A DNA stretch of 26,294 nucleotides. Source: a virus. This document shows positions 1 through 26,294 of the stretch, piece after piece. Position numbers and translations under genes: made by a program. Position 1 is the stretch's first letter. Every line of letters begins with the position of its first letter. The notes below the pieces were generated by a model that was given only the letters and a program-made list of their open reading frames with translations, was not told where the DNA came from and searched no databases. The stretch spans positions 1 to 26,294 of the IMG/VR virus record IMGVR_UViG_3300025890_000132. One strand, given 5' to 3'.

Positions 1-605
1 GCGATACTGGTCAGATTACCAGTAAGAGTTGAGTGGACTACGTTGCCGTTGGTCCAGTCAGGAGCTGCGGCACCTGTAGCGGGACCGGTGATGGGAGTAA
101 AATACTGTTGCTTTGTCCAGGCGCGGGTAACATTGGTCTTGGCTGTGTTCGCGTCGAACGCCTGCACGGTCACGCCCAGGTCGCCGGTATCCAAGTGCCC
201 AGAGTGAGGCGACGCGGCCGCGAGGTGCGTGTCGTAGCTCGCGTGATTGAACGTCGACTCGTGCCCGGTTACCGGGTTCGGAATTGTGACGTCCGTTGAG
301 TCGGTGCCCGCGTTGTCGGTGGCAGTGACGCCGGCGCCGGTGAAATTGATATTCGTCCGCTGCGTGAGCGAAACGGTCTCGTCCTTCACGACGTGCGCCG
401 AACTGCCGGCGATTGCCGACCACGCGTTGTTTTTCCGCCCGTAGGTCGAGCCGTCGGCCGGCGCGTCCGAAAGGAACGTCGCGCTCAGATAGGTGCGCAA
501 CGCGGACATCAAAAACTTGAAGTTCGCCGAGCCGCGCTGCAACACGCCCTCGTCGGTATCGACCGGCGTCGTTGTGGTCAGCTCCGTGATTTTTTGATCG
601 GCCAT
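1..605 (-). CDS. Tail fibre protein, N-terminal part (runs off left edge)
   Basis: An ATG at 605 opens a frame that stays open for 201 codons to base 1, so the 3' end lies outside the window or, if the genome is circular, at the right end. The start overlaps the stop of the preceding 49-residue gene (TAATG). The N-terminus (MADQKITELTTTTPVDTDEG) is of the kind that links a fibre to the tail. A histidine-rich stretch follows (HESTFNHASYDTHLAASPHS), common in phage fibre stalks, and then WTKQQYF and W-x-NGNVV-x-STLTGN, typical of mosaic phage fibre modules. From about base 119 toward base 1 the codons become AT-richer (GGT, GCT, ACT, CTT), unlike the rest of the gene. The right-edge fibre ORF continues this frame exactly. 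A role as receptor-binding fibre is inferred. Confidence 0.8.
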   Translation of the reverse strand, partial: MADQKITELTTTTPVDTDEGVLQRGSANFKFLMSALRTYLSATFLSDAPADGSTYGRKNNAWSAIAGSSAHVVKDETVSLTQRTNINFTGAGVTATDNAGTDSTDVTIPNPVTGHESTFNHASYDTHLAAASPHSGHLDTGDLGVTVQAFDANTAKTNVTRAWTKQQYFTPITGPATGAAAPDWTNGNVVHSTLTGNLTSI

Positions 606-754: not shown

Positions 755-1710
755 CACACCACCCCGGTATAGATGATTTTATTGAGCACGATGGTCGGCT
801 GCACGTTGGTGTGCGCCTCACCGAGCAGGCCGTCGGCCGAACCGTCGCCGGTGTTGGTCGCCGAGTTGTTGTTGACGTAGTCGCCGCCGCCGCCCTCTGC
901 GTTGTTGAACTGCTGCGCGCCCTGGTTCTCGGTATGAACGTGCGGCTGCATTTCCGCCTTTGTGATGGCGTGCTCTTCGACGCCACCAGCTGCACCGAGA
1001 ATCGTGCCATTGAGAGCGGGTTTCGCGGCCGCAGTGAGCCTCGAGGCCGCAATGCCGCCCATGTCGTCCTTACCGGCGACCACGCGGCCGCGGAGGTCGG
1101 GAACGTTGAACGTCGTCGAGCCGTCGCCGGCGCCGAACGTCGTGCCCACGACGCCGAAAAGCACCGAGTACGTTGTGCGCGAAATGGCCGCTCCGTCGCA
1201 CAAGACGAACTTGGACGGCGCCGCGCTGCCCGCGTAGTCGTGCACGGTGCCGACCGGCACGAGCGCATCGAGGAGCGCTTGCAACCCGGCGACCGACTGA
1301 GTCGAGGCGGCCGGATTGTCCGCCGGCAGACCGATAAAGCATTTCAGATCGCTATCGGCTTGGATGGTCCCGGAGTCGAGCGTAACCGTTACGAGAAACG
1401 ATCCGGCCGTGCTCGCGATTGTCCCGTAAATCGTGCCAGTGAGCGTCCCGGTTAGCTTTACGCGCCGGTTGGCGTAATACCGAGCTGAGAGCGTACCGGT
1501 GCCGCTGGCGTTGAAACTGTTCGCGCTCGCCCTCGAGACGCTGTCGCCAAAGTCTAGCCAGGGAATGTCCTCGGCAAGCCGGCGAACGCCGCCCATAACC
1601 GCGCGACCGCTGTCGTTCAGCTTCCCGGCCTGCATTCCTTCCGGGTAGCCGTCCGGCGCCGTCGCGTTGTTGCTCGCGTCGGTCGAGCTCCAGTGTCTAA
1701 CGTCGCTCAT
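754..1710 (-). CDS. Tail fibre with phage tail-collar domain
   Basis: A 318-residue protein. The C-terminal half (about residues 150-318) matches the phage tail collar family. It has a core of the form FVLCDGAAISRTTYSVLF, followed by GTTFGAGDGSTTFNVPDLRG, RVVAGKDDMGG, a HVHTEN histidine pair, and a C-terminal end with QPTIVLNKIIYTG. These are the hallmark blocks of collar-domain fibres in T4 gp12-like and many other phages. The N-terminal 140 residues are beta-rich and unassigned, and presumably attach to the virion. The ATG at 1710 overlaps the stop of the large ejection-protein gene (ATGA), so it belongs to the leftward late operon. It probably acts in receptor binding or fibre trimerisation. 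Confidence 0.88.
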   Translation of the reverse strand: MSDVRHWSSTDASNNATAPDGYPEGMQAGKLNDSGRAVMGGVRRLAEDIPWLDFGDSVSRASANSFNASGTGTLSARYYANRRVKLTGTLTGTIYGTIASTAGSFLVTVTLDSGTIQADSDLKCFIGLPADNPAASTQSVAGLQALLDALVPVGTVHDYAGSAAPSKFVLCDGAAISRTTYSVLFGVVGTTFGAGDGSTTFNVPDLRGRVVAGKDDMGGIAASRLTAAAKPALNGTILGAAGGVEEHAITKAEMQPHVHTENQGAQQFNNAEGGGGDYVNNNSATNTGDGSADGLLGEAHTNVQPTIVLNKIIYTGVV

Positions 1711-3680
1711 TGTCCGCCCCCCTGTTGTCCTGCAATGAGAGCCGGCAGCACGGCCGCCGGCGGAATCAGTCGAGCGCCGGCGCCCGTCGAGCTCGGCATT
1801 TCCGCGCTCTGCAACAGCTCGTCGAGTATGCGCCGCTGCTGTGCCGGGTCCGACTCGAGGAGCATCGCGCCCACCCGATCACGAACCGGGCCGCGCCCGC
1901 TCGGAGACGCCCGCAAGGCGAGAGCCAGAGCTCGCTTGTAAAGCTCGCCCATGTTACCGGTCGCCGCGTCCACAACCGCGGCTCGAGCTTCGTTCCCGAG
2001 CTCGCCTTGCCGGGCCTGCCTCGAGGCCGTTTGCGACCCGCGGAGCGTTTGGTTCATGGTCGCCTGTTGCTCGGTCAGTTGGTCGATACGCTCAAAAAAC
2101 TCGTCGGCCTCGGCTCGAGAGTCGAATAGCTCTCGAAAGCGTTTCTCGATACCGCGCTTGCGGAAGTGCTTCGCGCTGTCGTGCGTCCATCCGTCCGAGT
2201 CGAGCTTGTCCGTTATCGCTTGGCGCACGCCTTGGCGATACGCTACCTTGTCCGCGTCCGACATCCTCGAGAGCTTCGCGCCGAGCTCGTCGGCCGAGGT
2301 CCGAAAGAACGCTTGCCCGTCCTCGATCGCCTCGCGGAAGTTTTCGCCACTCGCCCAATACTGGCGAGCCTCGCGGAGCTTTGGGTTTGCCGCCGAGACT
2401 GCGTCCATCACGCGCTTGCGCAGAGAGGCAACGCTCCGTGCGTCTCCCGGCGCCGTCCGGGACAGGTTCGCGTAACTGCGGTCCAGATCGCGAATTATGT
2501 AGTCCCATCCCATGGTCGACGGTTCGGCACTGTCAAACAGGCCGCGGTCGAACGGTAATCCCTCGTCCTCGGCTAAATCCTCGGCCCGATCACGGAATGC
2601 CCTGTCCTGCCAGATTTTCTGCACGCGACGAGACTTCCAGAGCTCCTCGAGCTCCTTTGTCATTGGCGTATCGGCTGCGTAGGCCTCGCCGTACAGTCTC
2701 GGCGCCTCCTGGCTGCGCTGGCGCGCGAGACCGTCCATTGTGGCGGCCTTGCTGCCTGGACCGCCGACCGCGGCCTCGATTTCGTCCGCCTGAGCTCGAG
2801 AGCGCGGGTAAAGCGTGTCCTCGGCGAGCTGCCGAGTCGCGCCCGGTTGCTGTACGACGCCCTCGAGCTCGCCGCGCGGGCCGGCGCCAACGTCAGCGAG
2901 AACGGATCCGCGATTAGCGGCGAGAGCTGCTTTCGCGTCGTCAGGCGAGAGCCCGCTCTCCTCGAGCGCCGCGGCAACGCGACGGCTTGCCAGCACGTCC
3001 GGATCGATAGCGCCTCGAAGCGCCTGGACGCCGGACGCGACGCCGTCGACGACCGGGCCGAGAGCTGCTCCGGCAACTCCGCCGATTGCTGCACCTTTGA
3101 GCGACTCGCCCAGGACGTCCTCGAGCTCCTTCGCGTCGCCGGCGCCCTGGAGAGCTCCGCCGGTCGCTCCCGACGCTGCACCGGTGCCGGAAAGCAAGGC
3201 GAGACGCTTTTTCGTCGGTGCGGCTGCGATGCTTTGCACGACCCTCGAGCCGACGTTCGTCGCTCCCGCTCGAGCTGCTCCGGCGCCGCCAGTGACAAGG
3301 CCGCCGACCAGCTCGCCAGCGAAAGCCGTTTTCGGGTTTTCGTCCTTGTAACGAGCGTAGGCGTCCCGCTCTCCGTCGCGGTAAGCCTCATAACCTCGGA
3401 CCTTGTCCGCGTCGAACTCGAAATTCTCGTTCTCCATTCCCGGAACCGGCAAGCCGATCGCGTCGAAACCCTCGCCAGCCATGCCGCGGAGCTCGTCGAG
3501 AAATCCGAACGTTGCGCCCTGAGCGACGGCGGTCGCGGCTGTCGCGGAGGTCGGTCGGCTGTCGATGTTGAACGACGGATCGAGCCCGAGCTCCGTCTCG
3601 AGGCGCGCAATCATCGGTTGATTGCCTTCGCTCTTTGCTTGAGCGAGCGCGCCTTCGAGTTGTTCCTTCGTGTACTTCAC
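1707..3680 (-). CDS. Large putative DNA ejection (pilot) protein, 657 aa
   Basis: Starts at a GTG (3680) preceded by a GAGGTGA ribosome site five bases upstream. It begins just after the stop of the 347-aa gene. Residues about 120-220 hold several glycine/alanine-rich hydrophobic segments (GELVGGLVTGGAG, GTGAASGATGGAL, GAAIGGVAGAALGPVV), a glycine-zipper pattern typical of phage ejection proteins that insert in membranes. The rest is charged and alpha-helical. The C-terminus is again hydrophobic and Gln/Gly-rich (PPAAVLPALIAGQQGGGQ). Size, position between tail and fibre genes and composition fit the P22 gp16/gp20 or T7 inner-core type of virion protein that is injected with DNA. No lysozyme motif is seen. 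The assignment rests on composition and context rather than a clear homologue. Confidence 0.7.
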   Translation of the reverse strand: MKYTKEQLEGALAQAKSEGNQPMIARLETELGLDPSFNIDSRPTSATAATAVAQGATFGFLDELRGMAGEGFDAIGLPVPGMENENFEFDADKVRGYEAYRDGERDAYARYKDENPKTAFAGELVGGLVTGGAGAARAGATNVGSRVVQSIAAAPTKKRLALLSGTGAASGATGGALQGAGDAKELEDVLGESLKGAAIGGVAGAALGPVVDGVASGVQALRGAIDPDVLASRRVAAALEESGLSPDDAKAALAANRGSVLADVGAGPRGELEGVVQQPGATRQLAEDTLYPRSRAQADEIEAAVGGPGSKAATMDGLARQRSQEAPRLYGEAYAADTPMTKELEELWKSRRVQKIWQDRAFRDRAEDLAEDEGLPFDRGLFDSAEPSTMGWDYIIRDLDRSYANLSRTAPGDARSVASLRKRVMDAVSAANPKLREARQYWASGENFREAIEDGQAFFRTSADELGAKLSRMSDADKVAYRQGVRQAITDKLDSDGWTHDSAKHFRKRGIEKRFRELFDSRAEADEFFERIDQLTEQQATMNQTLRGSQTASRQARQGELGNEARAAVVDAATGNMGELYKRALALALRASPSGRGPVRDRVGAMLLESDPAQQRRILDELLQSAEMPSSTGAGARLIPPAAVLPALIAGQQGGGQ

Positions 3681-22758: not shown

Positions 22759-23367
22759 CTACCTGAGCCGGTGCTCGATCCACCCGTTAAAAAACCGCTC
22801 CTGTCCTGGAGAGGTCAGCACAATTTCACGATAGCGCACGTACTGCTCGCCGTTCAGCACCACGACCAGGCGCTCGGCCGTGTTGACCTCGATGCACTTG
22901 CGAACGGCGCCGAGAGTGCGCGGCCCGATGGCACCGTCGACCATGATGTCGGGATACGAGCGCGCGTTGCGGTTCATCAGGTTGACTGCGGCTTGCAGGA
23001 TGCGCCCGGCCGTGCCGGTGCCCATGTTTACGCCGGTGTCGTAGACCTCAAGCGCGACGGCCGCGGACAGCTCCGCGAGCTGGTTACCGCAAACAGGCTT
23101 CCAGTAACGCTCGAAATACGCGAACTTGACGTTCACCCACAGCTCGGCATCGTCGCGCAGCTGCTTGTCGAGCTTGTCACTACGTTTTTGCGTCGGCTGC
23201 ACGCGCAAGCGTCGCTTGTAGTCGTCGACGCGGTCCCAGAGCGCCGGGTCGGGATTGTCGCGCCTGGTAATGCCGGCGTACGTTTCGCCGCCGCGGTCCT
23301 CCGGGTCGTTGACCCAACCGCCTTCGACCGCCGCGGTCGCCTCGAATGCAGATTGCCACGCGTCCAT
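22759..23367 (-). CDS. Endolysin, glycosyl hydrolase 108-type, 202 aa
   Basis: The ATG at 23367 has a GGGAG ribosome site six bases upstream and is preferred to a GTG at 23403. Near the N-terminus the catalytic block reads VEGGWVNDPEDRGGETYAGI, the E-GG-x-x-x-DP-x-D-x-GG-x-T-x-x-GIT motif of GH108 muramidases, with E15 the likely catalytic acid. The C-terminal part (GRILQAAVNLMNRNARSYPD, IMVDGAIGPRTLGAVRKCIE) matches the predicted peptidoglycan-binding domain paired with GH108. It hydrolyses murein at lysis. It is the last gene of the leftward unit. No signal peptide is seen, so it needs a holin for export. Confidence 0.88.
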   Translation of the reverse strand: MDAWQSAFEATAAVEGGWVNDPEDRGGETYAGITRRDNPDPALWDRVDDYKRRLRVQPTQKRSDKLDKQLRDDAELWVNVKFAYFERYWKPVCGNQLAELSAAVALEVYDTGVNMGTGTAGRILQAAVNLMNRNARSYPDIMVDGAIGPRTLGAVRKCIEVNTAERLVVVLNGEQYVRYREIVLTSPGQERFFNGWIEHRLR

Positions 23368-23414
23368 CACGTTCTCCCAGTTATATCCGGCAACGATGTT
23401 CACTTGCGTTATTC

Positions 23415-23603
23415 TTACTTTTTCATGATTTCGACCATTTCCCTCACGCCGGCGAGCCCGCCGTTCTTCTCGAGCGTGGCGCCGATTTGGGTCGTCGCAT
23501 AAACGTCCCGTGCCTCAGCCTCGCGGAGTTTCTTTAGCGTGTCGGTCTTCGGCTGGCGCCGATTCAAGATGACGTCCATCAGCAAGCGAACGCATCTATC
23601 CAT
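23415..23603 (-). CDS. Small lysis-region protein, 62 aa
   Basis: The ATG at 23603 lies within the last codons of the holin candidate, so this start is chosen over a longer frame from 23675. The protein is MDRCVRLLMDVILNRRQPKT, then DTLKKLREAEARDVYATTQI and GATLEKNGGLAGVREMVEIM. It is basic and helical with no clear membrane segment. Overlapping a holin candidate and preceding the endolysin, it may be a lysis accessory, such as a regulator or antiholin, but I recognise no family. Confidence 0.55.
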   Translation of the reverse strand: MDRCVRLLMDVILNRRQPKTDTLKKLREAEARDVYATTQIGATLEKNGGLAGVREMVEIMKK

Positions 23604-23793
23604 CGTCGCCCCGTGCCGCTTCCTCGAGCGCTCGCGCGACGCGCTCGTTGTTGGTCGCGGCTCGGTCAATAACACCGAGTAAGGTATCCATGATGAACCG
23701 CACTATCTTGTAGTTCGCAAAAAGCGAGATAGCGAGCAGCAAGCCTAATACTCCGTGCTTGGCCAGCTGCTCGAGGAATGTTGCCTCTAACAT
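23596..23793 (-). CDS. Holin candidate, 65 aa
   Basis: A 65-residue protein with one strong membrane segment (about 13-30: HGVLGLLLAISLFANYKIV) and a second amphipathic or weakly hydrophobic helix (RFIMDTLLGVI), followed by a charged C-terminal tail (AATNNERVARALEEAARGDD). Small size, N-terminal membrane segment, charged tail and position two genes before the endolysin fit a single-span holin or pinholin-like protein. Holins form membrane lesions that let the endolysin out. Sequence alone does not prove this; a general membrane protein is possible. Confidence 0.6.
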   Translation of the reverse strand: MLEATFLEQLAKHGVLGLLLAISLFANYKIVRFIMDTLLGVIDRAATNNERVARALEEAARGDDG

Positions 23794-23814
23794 TACTGCC
23801 TGCCCAGCTGCCAG

Positions 23815-24231
23815 TTATGACAGGTCTGTTCGTTCCCACCTCGGACCACCCAGGCGAACCGCCCAGTACATTTTCACGACGTCGGCCCAGTCGACCAGGT
23901 AGCGCGCGCACATGCGCCGGAAGTGCCGCGCAGCATGAATGCTATTGATGCCGACGGACGCGTAGCCGTTGCGCCGGTCGCATAAGTCATCATGCTCAAG
24001 GGACGGAACGACCATTTTCCAGTGTGACGACGGCAGCACGAAAACTGCGCGGTCGTGCCATGGCTTCGAAGCGCCGTCCCATCGATAGCCGGCTTTGATG
24101 ACGCAATGCACCTCTGGGTGCTCGCCGTCCTTATCCGGTCGCACCGTGTAGTGCCAATCCTGCTTCAGCTCCCAGCGGCACGACTCGCTCTCGGCTTCGA
24201 CGATAGCGCGCATCAGCGGCGTTCTAAGCAC
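23815..24231 (-). CDS. DUF1353 family protein, 138 aa
   Basis: The GTG at 24231 shares its first base with the preceding TAG (TAGTG) and follows a GGAGGA ribosome site; a longer frame to 24297 would run through the lipoprotein gene. The motif pair AGYRWDGASKPWHDRAVFVL (47-66) and LEHDDLCDRRNGY (78-90) is the DUF1353 signature, with a W-DGAS-P loop and an H-DLCD segment. DUF1353 proteins are common in phage lysis or tail-end regions and resemble metal-binding hydrolase folds, but their role is not established. Here it sits between the lipoprotein and holin genes, suggesting a lysis function. Confidence 0.75.
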   Translation of the reverse strand: MLRTPLMRAIVEAESESCRWELKQDWHYTVRPDKDGEHPEVHCVIKAGYRWDGASKPWHDRAVFVLPSSHWKMVVPSLEHDDLCDRRNGYASVGINSIHAARHFRRMCARYLVDWADVVKMYWAVRLGGPRWERTDLS

Positions 24232-24602
24232 TATTCGTCCTCCGCGTTCGGCTCGGCCGCCGGGGGCGTGAACCGGTGTTTGCAAAGCGCCGCCCACTCG
24301 TCAAGCTCGGCGCCGAATTGCAGGTAGAGCTGCGACACCGACATACGCTCGCATATCTGCCGGCGGGCCCGCGTGGTTCGAACGGCGTCGATGTCGTCGT
24401 CGAGTTTCTCGACGCGGTCGATACTCTGCGTCGCCTTTGCGCGCACCTCTTCGGCCCGTTCGGTGATCGAGCAGCCAGAAAGCGCCAGAAAAACGCACAA
24501 GCAAAAACAGGCAATTGCGGGCCCTCGAGGCGCCTGGTCGGCGGAGTTGGCGAACACGTGCCCTCGACGCTCATAGGTGGTGACATGTGTGATGTCCGTC
24601 AT
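24231..24602 (-). CDS. Lipoprotein, possible outer-membrane lysis accessory, 123 aa
   Basis: The ATG at 24602 overlaps the stop of the fibre-assembly gene (ATGA). A hydrophobic stretch ends in a lipobox (CFCLCVFLALSGCS, Cys44), so the mature protein would be lipid-anchored. An in-frame GTG at residue 16 would give a more normal signal length and may be the real start. After the Cys come a helical, likely coiled-coil segment (TERAEEVRAKATQSIDRVEK) and a compact domain with two further cysteines. Location in the lysis cassette suggests an o-spanin or related envelope protein, but it is longer than most o-spanins and no inner-membrane spanin partner is found. Confidence 0.6.
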   Translation of the reverse strand: MTDITHVTTYERRGHVFANSADQAPRGPAIACFCLCVFLALSGCSITERAEEVRAKATQSIDRVEKLDDDIDAVRTTRARRQICERMSVSQLYLQFGAELDEWAALCKHRFTPPAAEPNAEDE

Positions 24603-25243
24603 TTGGGCCACTTCGCTTCGATTTGGGGGCGAAGCCTCTCCAGGTTCTTGTAAATGTCTGGTTTGTTTGCCAACCCGTCCACCTGTAGATTTGCCCAGTC
24701 CACCACCTCAGTGATGAGGGCACCCATGGAATGCCACGCAGCTGCCTTGGTGCTCCACTCAGCAGCCACTTCTTCAAGGGTCGTGCCGGTGACACGCACC
24801 CGAGCCTCGGCAAAGGGGAGACCACTGGTGGCGCCAGCGACAATCTTCTGTGCCTCAACCTGCTTAGTGAGGTACTCCATAATTTTCCCTGGACCATCAC
24901 TGTCGATAATTGAGCGGCGCAGGGTCTCTGCATGGTCGCGCACTTCTCGCATGAATTTGCGCTTCGCCCCCAGCGCCTTCTTCCTAACTATCTCAGGCTC
25001 GACCTCATTGAACGACACCTGCTCTGCCACCCGGTCACCAATGCGTACCAACGTCAACTTAGCCGTCTGGAACTCTGAAGGCTCCGGGCCCTTCTCGACG
25101 CGATACACACCAAAGTGCGCGAGGCGCTCATCTGTCTCTGTTCGAAGGATGGATGGCGAGTTTTTCCCTGGCAATAAATTCAGGCATGCTTTTGGGGAAG
25201 CGTAGACAAGCTCCCCAACTTGGTTTTCGATTGCGAATTTCAT
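24599..25243 (-). CDS. Putative tail-fibre assembly protein, 214 aa
   Basis: A 214-residue protein starting three bases after the tail-fibre stop. The N-terminal half is beta-rich (MKFAIENQVGELVYASPKAC, DERLAHFGVYRVEKGPEPSE, FQTAKLTLVRIGDRVAEQVS), resembling the entry region of phage fibre-assembly proteins, where a short GVY motif and a Pro-rich link precede a helical domain. The C-terminal half is helical (LEEVAAEWSTKAAAWHSMGA) with an AEWSTKAAAWHSMG Trp motif. Position directly after a fibre gene is typical of a fibre chaperone that aids folding or attachment. The gene lacks CTCGAG and GAGCTC, like the fibre but unlike the rest of the genome, implying it moved together with the fibre. Confidence 0.55.
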   Translation of the reverse strand: MKFAIENQVGELVYASPKACLNLLPGKNSPSILRTETDERLAHFGVYRVEKGPEPSEFQTAKLTLVRIGDRVAEQVSFNEVEPEIVRKKALGAKRKFMREVRDHAETLRRSIIDSDGPGKIMEYLTKQVEAQKIVAGATSGLPFAEARVRVTGTTLEEVAAEWSTKAAAWHSMGALITEVVDWANLQVDGLANKPDIYKNLERLRPQIEAKWPK

Positions 25244-25246
25244 GTG

Positions 25247-26294
25247 TTACCTGCCTGGTACTGGTGGTAGACCTTCGCCCGCTGCAACATCGGCCATAGA
25301 TAAAAAATAGTAGTCAACGCCGGAACCGTTGATGGTGCTGGAGCTAGTTCTCGGTTTAAACCCATGCGCCAGTATGTCAAACGGTTTGAACGATCCGCCA
25401 CCGACGGATTCTCCCGCGTTCGATTCAGCGGTAACGTAAGTGTCAGCAGGGTTGTGCGGACTGCGAACAGTGTCGTACATCGGCCACTCTTGAGCACCTA
25501 CGTTTCCCTTGACAAGTAGGCTTCGGATTCTATTTCCGGTGAGAATTAGAGGCCCATCAGCAGCGCCATTGCCTTTGTACTGCGCCACAGTGCATACGCC
25601 GGGTTTGTTGCGGAAGCAGAACGCAATCATGTTGTCCCCGCTGCCGTTGGTGTCGTTGTGTGCGCCGACTTTAAACACAGCCGCAGATGGTGCCCCGTTC
25701 CATTGAGTGCTGTGCGCTGCCAAGCCGCCAAGGCCGTCGAGCACTAGGTACTGCGTCCACCCCCACATATCCGAGCCGACAATCCAACTCGCGGAATCTG
25801 TGCGGTTCTTGACAATAACGAGGTCGGGCTTAGCATCCATGCCGTGCCCGAGTGTTGCGTTGCCTGCGGTGCCGGTCCACTGAACAATAGACATGTGCCC
25901 TGCCTCGGCAACCTGTACCGTAGTGGCAACACTGCCGTCGCTGTTGCTCGCGGTCGTGCCACCGTTCAGTTTCCATAGCCAAAGCAGATACGTGGCGGCA
26001 CTGTCGTTGGCGTTGTTGGCGTTGTCTACGCGCACTCCGTCTGAGCGCATCGAGTCGATGCCTGTCTCTGCTGCCTCGGCATTTGGCACATCGGGATATA
26101 GAATGTTACCTACGCCACGCGACGAGTCGAACAGCTTGTGGCTCAGTACCGCGCTGCGCTTCTTGTGCCAGCCTAAGTCAGGTTGGAAGTTGGCCCCCAG
26201 TACATCCTTATTATTGGTTGCGTCACCTGTAAACAGCACTGCATTAAAATGGTCTATACCTTGCGCGCTAGGTGCGGGAAAATTTTCTAGTCGG
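25247..26294 (-). CDS. Tail fibre / receptor-binding protein, C-terminal part (open at right edge)
   Basis: The frame is open from the window edge (first full codon at 26293) to a stop at 25247, so the 5' end is missing. The protein reads RLENFPAPSAQGIDHFNAVL then FTGDATNNKDVLGANFQPDL, WHKKRSAVLSHKLFDSSRGV and several blocks of the form KPDLVIVKNRTDSASWIVGS and NMIAFCFRNKPGVCTVAQYK. This is a mosaic tail-fibre domain widespread in marine and aquatic phages (DUF7483-type), typically the distal receptor-binding end. Joined to the left-edge fibre it continues that frame exactly, giving a 550-residue fibre. A GTG at 26239 could be read as a start but would truncate the conserved block. Confidence 0.82.
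   Translation of the reverse strand, partial: RLENFPAPSAQGIDHFNAVLFTGDATNNKDVLGANFQPDLGWHKKRSAVLSHKLFDSSRGVGNILYPDVPNAEAAETGIDSMRSDGVRVDNANNANDSAATYLLWLWKLNGGTTASNSDGSVATTVQVAEAGHMSIVQWTGTAGNATLGHGMDAKPDLVIVKNRTDSASWIVGSDMWGWTQYLVLDGLGGLAAHSTQWNGAPSAAVFKVGAHNDTNGSGDNMIAFCFRNKPGVCTVAQYKGNGAADGPLILTGNRIRSLLVKGNVGAQEWPMYDTVRSPHNPADTYVTAESNAGESVGGGSFKPFDILAHGFKPRTSSSTINGSGVDYYFLSMADVAAGEGLPPVPGR

Follow-up and report, generated by a model that had tools for sequence, protein, structure and literature searches.

The window analysed here is the whole stretch of IMG/VR virus record IMGVR_UViG_3300025890_000132, 26,294 bases with zero N, and the backbone of the phage carries a portal (E 3.8e-145) and a capsid (E 4e-60) of SU10 type. 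For this backbone, close relatives were found neither with 1707-3680 as query nor by megablast in phage records, and the capsid detected one relative at 42%; a near relative bearing a different tip did not turn up in these searches, which counts against an exchange. The features discussed below, including those matched by L002, the end of a contig from another phage, are as follows.

157-605, minus strand: N-terminal part of a fibre gene, native to the window phage; ATG at 605, GC 0.634 (153-605)
151-167, minus strand: seam in the fibre hinge GVTVQAFDANTAK; identity with L002 begins inside it, change point 148
1-156, minus strand: distal fibre part, putatively incoming, cut by the left end of the record; 154/156 identical to L002 8318-8473
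20600-21514, plus strand: YqaJ/RecE-like exonuclease; phrog_434 E 1.4e-75, PF09588 E 2.8e-29
24231-24611, minus strand: first gene outside the island, lipoprotein-like, a possible spanin; GTG start listed, in-frame ATG at 24602
24570-24602, minus strand: right edge of the island; change point 24,570, TGA of the orphan gene overlapping the ATG of the next gene (ATGA)
24599-25243, minus strand: 214-aa orphan gene that probably belongs to the cassette, a possible fibre helper; GC 0.553, GC3 0.63, log-odds +0.080
25247-26294, minus strand: DUF7483 tip, putatively incoming, probably the C-terminal part of a LamG-type gene; PF24299 E 5.9e-77

The two ends of the record form a compositional island, in which GC, GC3 and tetranucleotides all shift at the same places. 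GC is 0.556 at 24,599-26,294, 0.529 at 1-119 and 0.546 at 1-152, and it is 0.634 at 153-605 and 0.613 in the lysis region at 22,759-24,598, both outside the island. The GC3 values of 0.63 (24599-25243), 0.60 (tip, 25,247-26,294) and 0.59 (fibre, 3-170) lie below those of 22 of the 24 other ORFs or ORF parts listed, which range from 0.65 to 0.84; the remaining two have 0.55 and 0.58. Change points by tetranucleotide log-odds fall at 24,570 and 148, and these data bear out two claims of the preliminary description, that codons are AT-richer from about 24,600 rightward and that the last 119 or so bases of the left-edge fibre have the same style. A composition within the normal range is ruled out by the tetranucleotide scan and by windowed GC: windows of 1,696 bp avoiding the island have a mean of 0.627, an sd of 0.017 and a minimum of 0.597, and the z of the island, about -4.3, is descriptive because these backbone windows overlap.

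The island is also devoid of two hexamers that are abundant elsewhere in the window. There are 91 CTCGAG and 73 GAGCTC (164 sites) in the whole record, with starts spanning 678 to 24,524 and none outside this range, so that the absence of both from about 24,600 to the right edge holds as had been described, as does the repeated occurrence of CTCGAG in the lysis genes to the left (four in 22,759-24,598, at 23469, 23623, 23770 and 24524). The largest circular gap, from 24,524 to 678, is 2,448 bp, about threefold the next of the 164 gaps (760 bp). Under uniform placement, any gap of at least 2,448 bp has a probability of about 4e-5 and the absence of sites from the 1,864-bp island one of about 9e-6, both of which are rough because real sites are not uniformly placed. 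The base composition of the island predicts only about 0.4 of each hexamer, so the absence is expected from the island's own composition and the striking side is the excess in the backbone. At 169-24598 the 91 CTCGAG and 73 GAGCTC stand against 16.3 and 13.0 expected from dinucleotides, about 5.6 times as many, and from a fifth-order model 67.6 and 70.7 would be expected. In the 16 ORFs counted, 45 of 71 CTCGAG and 38 of 57 GAGCTC are in codon phase, and the usage of CTC for Leu and GAG for Glu thus accounts for much of the backbone excess.

A search with the DUF7483 tip gave one relative, L002, which is the end of an 18,886-bp contig of a T7-like podovirus encoding a T7-type connector, scaffold, capsid, tube, nozzle, gp14 and fibre N-terminus, together with further tail, internal-virion and nucleotide genes. 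When the window was compared with this whole contig at E 1e-3, only two DNA matches appeared. One is window 167-1, with 161 of 167 bases identical (96.4%), of which 1-156 has 154 of 156 and corresponds to L002 8318-8473; the other is window 26,294-26,196, with 99 of 99 identical (100%), ending at the end of the L002 contig. The contig stops 99 bp into the tip, and the comparison therefore reaches the tip only at 26,196-26,294, leaving 25,247-26,195 and the orphan gene outside it. In protein frames two extra weak matches of 29 and 21 residues were seen (E 0.003 and 0.007). Near-identical DNA is thus present within two phages that are otherwise unlike and differ in head and tail types, as expected of an exchanged receptor-binding module. 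Close matches of the fibre tip in unrelated phages, proposed earlier as a check, accordingly exist in one T7-like phage, over 1-156 and 26,196-26,294, the stretches that could be compared. An exact search with a 49-base pattern for other carriers of the cassette gave L002 alone; the second gene of L002 as query matched only its own contig, and its fibre end matched its own contig and L033 at 36%.

The left limit of the identity can be placed within a few codons inside the hinge motif of the fibre. Mismatches to L002 lie at 165, 160, 159 and 157, four in eleven bases, and then only at 129 and 99 down to position 1, which indicates that the hinge GVTVQAFDANTAK starts as the window phage's own and continues as sequence common with L002. 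Identity stops at about 156, in the hinge motif, as expected of breakpoints at gene or domain boundaries, and no DNA match to L002 was found beyond window 167. The fibre upstream (169-605) scores -0.082 per base, on the backbone side, in log-odds of an L002 model, trained without the shared part of L002, over a backbone model. Matches of 3-605 to tail-fibre and whisker families of PHROGs are weak (best E 0.0013), and short matches to the N-terminal part occur in 13 contigs, of which those at least 6,500 bases long served as composition controls. Hinge-like sequences occur in tail genes of 7 other phage records, with weak matches (E 0.03-0.2), and on this basis short homology at the hinge may have directed the crossover on the left.

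In the same log-odds the right segment scores +0.053 per base, 24,599-25,243 +0.080, the tip +0.036 and 1-168 +0.037, where backbone blocks are at or below -0.052 and the own blocks of L002 have a mean of +0.070 and a minimum of +0.047. The tip alone thus scores under the lowest L002 block, which counts against an exchange. The L002 contig is uniform, with GC 0.553 overall and 0.538-0.568 over 1,864-bp windows, and has 0 CTCGAG and 0 GAGCTC where 6.5 and 7.1 are expected. When 23 training sources were compared, a contig of GC 0.544 that carries the 42% relative of the window's capsid protein (L025) ranked above L002 for the right segment (+0.0525 vs +0.0483) and was the best fit to the island among the sources tried. 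Composition therefore points only to some phage of about 55% GC, and it is the DNA identity that tells which one; we rejected composition as proof of the donor, as the right segment is fitted no worse by L025 than by L002. As a separate observation, at least ten palindromic hexamers, including CTGCAG, CACGTG, CTCGAG and GAGCTC, are at zero in the L002 contig (L031 plus L007) though dinucleotides predict 4 or more each, as if many restriction sites were avoided.

The tip matches PF24299 with 259.4 bits against a curated cut-off of 27, over positions 4-328 of the 330 of the profile, and it can be assigned to DUF7483. Matches to this domain were found in 65 phage records, with a best identity below 60% in each and at most 36.3% among the 40 rows listed; these records are mainly of Pelagibacter and Synechococcus phages, with Roseobacter, Vibrio and Methylophilales also represented, so that hosts are mostly marine. 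DUF7483 forms the end of a much longer protein in 6 of the 8 phage records examined and a stand-alone gene in 2. Of the 1,227 positions of phrog_19943, the window tip covers 889-1218 and gene 8690 of L002 covers 446-915; these adjoining parts indicate that the tip lacks its front in the window and support a missing stretch between fibre and tip. In L002 the second gene carries the LamG-type PF13385, and 1,526 bp lie between the two stretches that match the window. At the window ends the sequence is identical over 98 bases, followed by a mismatch, and over 99 bases, followed by the L002 contig end, which fits a break of a de Bruijn assembly at a k of about 99 within a stretch common to two genomes; the assembler and k are deduced from these lengths. 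We infer that the window phage probably has the 1.5 kb too, and that the fibre gene ends and the LamG-type gene starts inside it. The fibre (605-1) and the DUF7483 tip (26,294-25,247) are therefore probably two genes and not one fusion.

The preliminary description had suggested that, if the genome is circular, the two ends are one continuous segment, and this was not confirmed, in view of the 1,526 bp present in L002 and the lack of any terminal repeat of 10-199 bases in the 26,294-base record. Across the record ends the frame 605-1-26294-25247 stays open over 550 aa, and one explanation would be a complete circular genome that truly lost the 1,526 bp, so that fibre and DUF7483 became fused. 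We consider that very unlikely: the record ends would have to land by chance exactly at the deletion point, an open join arises by chance once in three, the terminal repeat is absent, and DUF7483 ends a much longer protein, or has a gene of its own, in the records examined. The open frame is most likely an artefact, by chance, of closing an incomplete contig, and the circular fused fibre was rejected on this ground, together with the adjoining parts of phrog_19943.

The 214-aa orphan gene next to the tip had been described as an assembly gene or chaperone. It shares the composition of the island and, judged by that composition only, probably travelled with the cassette, but as a chaperone it is at most a candidate. 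No family of Pfam or NCBIfam was matched at E up to 10, including tail-fibre chaperone families, and no match in phage records at E 0.01; a single row was obtained in PHROGs (E 0.46), and of 67 stretches in genome contigs that fitted a search pattern 0 were confirmed as relatives. The gene as a known chaperone was rejected accordingly. A motif of 32 residues near its N-terminus is identical at 15 positions to a protein of L003 that carries PF16778 and is encoded right after a long ORF (E 0.016, under the phmmer inclusion threshold), and may weakly link the orphan gene to tail-assembly chaperones. Four viral contigs have this motif alone in common with the gene, and three of them, searched whole, gave no match at E 0.001. 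The single-sequence structure prediction had a mean pLDDT of 40.9, too poor for fold comparison.

The right breakpoint, as placed by composition alone, lies beside the gene boundary at 24,599-24,602. The gene beyond it (24231-24611) has a lipobox, read by eye, has no Pfam match, and scores -0.078 per base (24231-24598), on the backbone side. Among the lysis genes outside the island, the ORF at 23815-24297 matches phrog_1158, annotated as tail assembly chaperone (E 1e-13), and has a sub-threshold match to DUF1353 (E 0.0019).

On the whole we consider it likely, with good confidence, that the island is what can be seen of a host-recognition cassette, acquired recently by the SU10-type podovirus of the window from an L002-like T7-like lineage, or by both of them from a close intermediate. 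Its contents would be the distal fibre (156 to 1, and beyond), a LamG-type gene that begins in the missing stretch of about 1.5 kb and stops at 25,247 with the DUF7483 tip, and next to it the 214-aa gene at 25,243-24,599. One crossover would have occurred inside the fibre hinge, keeping the frame and the window phage's own N-terminal part that attaches to the virion, and the other at a gene boundary next to the lysis genes; the phage-coded YqaJ/RecE-like exonuclease could aid such recombination. Composition points to the window phage as the recipient, and the presence of the 1,526 bp in its genome is likewise deduced. The swap would give the window phage the donor's receptor-binding end, and a change of host range or receptor may be expected from the role of such tips. 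A recent exchange of the receptor-binding end, earlier proposed from composition, thus gains support from near-identical DNA in a phage of a different lineage; the direct join of the ends and the single fusion are the parts to be corrected, and the small gene is a candidate chaperone at most.

Two other readings bear on this conclusion. The window and L002 may come from one assembly, and the window may hence be a chimeric contig, which counts against an exchange: the AT-richer ends would belong to an L002-type phage wrongly joined to the window backbone, consistent with the island having the composition of L002 and with both contig ends sitting at stretches common with it. However, two separate wrong joins would be needed, of which the left keeps strand and frame inside the hinge and the right falls at the ATGA gene overlap, in a record without N, and two silent-looking differences from L002 (129 and 99) are present; we regard a chimera as unlikely. 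Alternatively, the receptor-binding genes of the window lineage may be locally AT-richer by vertical inheritance, L002 having taken the cassette from the window phage. The good fit of the right segment to L025, with its related capsid and GC of 0.544, agrees with this, as does the lack of a relative showing the pre-exchange state, but the composition changes inside the fibre exactly where L002 identity begins, and L002 is uniform over 1,864-bp windows, which makes inheritance of this kind quite unlikely.

When distant phage families exchange receptor-binding modules, the event usually comes to light much later, as weakly similar proteins. Such exchange is already known among phages, and what is notable in the exchange proposed here is the near-zero divergence together with a visible breakpoint inside the fibre hinge. 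According to PMC10579305, the Alteromonas phages A5, V22 and P24, otherwise without similarity, have in common across distant families a host-recognition module of fibre and chaperone, in which a small gene follows the fibre gene. The window resembles this module, as described there, in that a fibre and a small gene would have been exchanged between distant phages; it differs in that its tip belongs to a different family, in that those modules have diverged (58.8% similarity; PMC10579305) whereas window and L002 DNA are 99-100% identical where seen, and in that the chaperones of V22 and A5 carry DUF4376 (same paper) whereas the small gene of the window has neither DUF4376 nor another match. 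With PF16778 chaperones the likeness is the 32-residue motif (15/32), and for the orphan gene itself Pfam gave nothing at E up to 10. With the DUF7483 virion proteins of marine phages (PF24299, phrog_19943) the window tip shares nearly the full profile, at identities of at most 36.3% among the matches listed. In the literature searched, a limited search mostly by general terms, no report of the window-L002 pair was found, nor DUF7483 by name.

If confirmed, the window would represent an almost fresh recombination product, provide a test of hinges as common seams and offer a candidate for a new fibre helper gene. A further lesson is that a contig broken inside a shared receptor-binding cassette can mimic a circular genome with a fused fibre. 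The hinge motif G-T/V-x-V-Q-x-Y/F-D/S-A was found in 6 contexts among 37 loci scanned, which gives no rate because L034-L036 were chosen for the motif and several loci overlap. It is a tentative and rather doubtful idea that this motif, recurrent in tail fibres of unrelated phages, is a common seam at which T7-like and SU10-type podoviruses of the same community pass on, in frame, a whole cassette (fibre end, LamG-type DUF7483 adhesin and its own helper from a family not yet described), aided by phage-coded YqaJ/RecE recombination. A groundwater podovirus (MW202481.1, ctXG6705) has both a relative of the window portal (33%) and a DUF7483 protein (35.5%), indicating that a portal of the window type and DUF7483 can also co-occur at larger distance.
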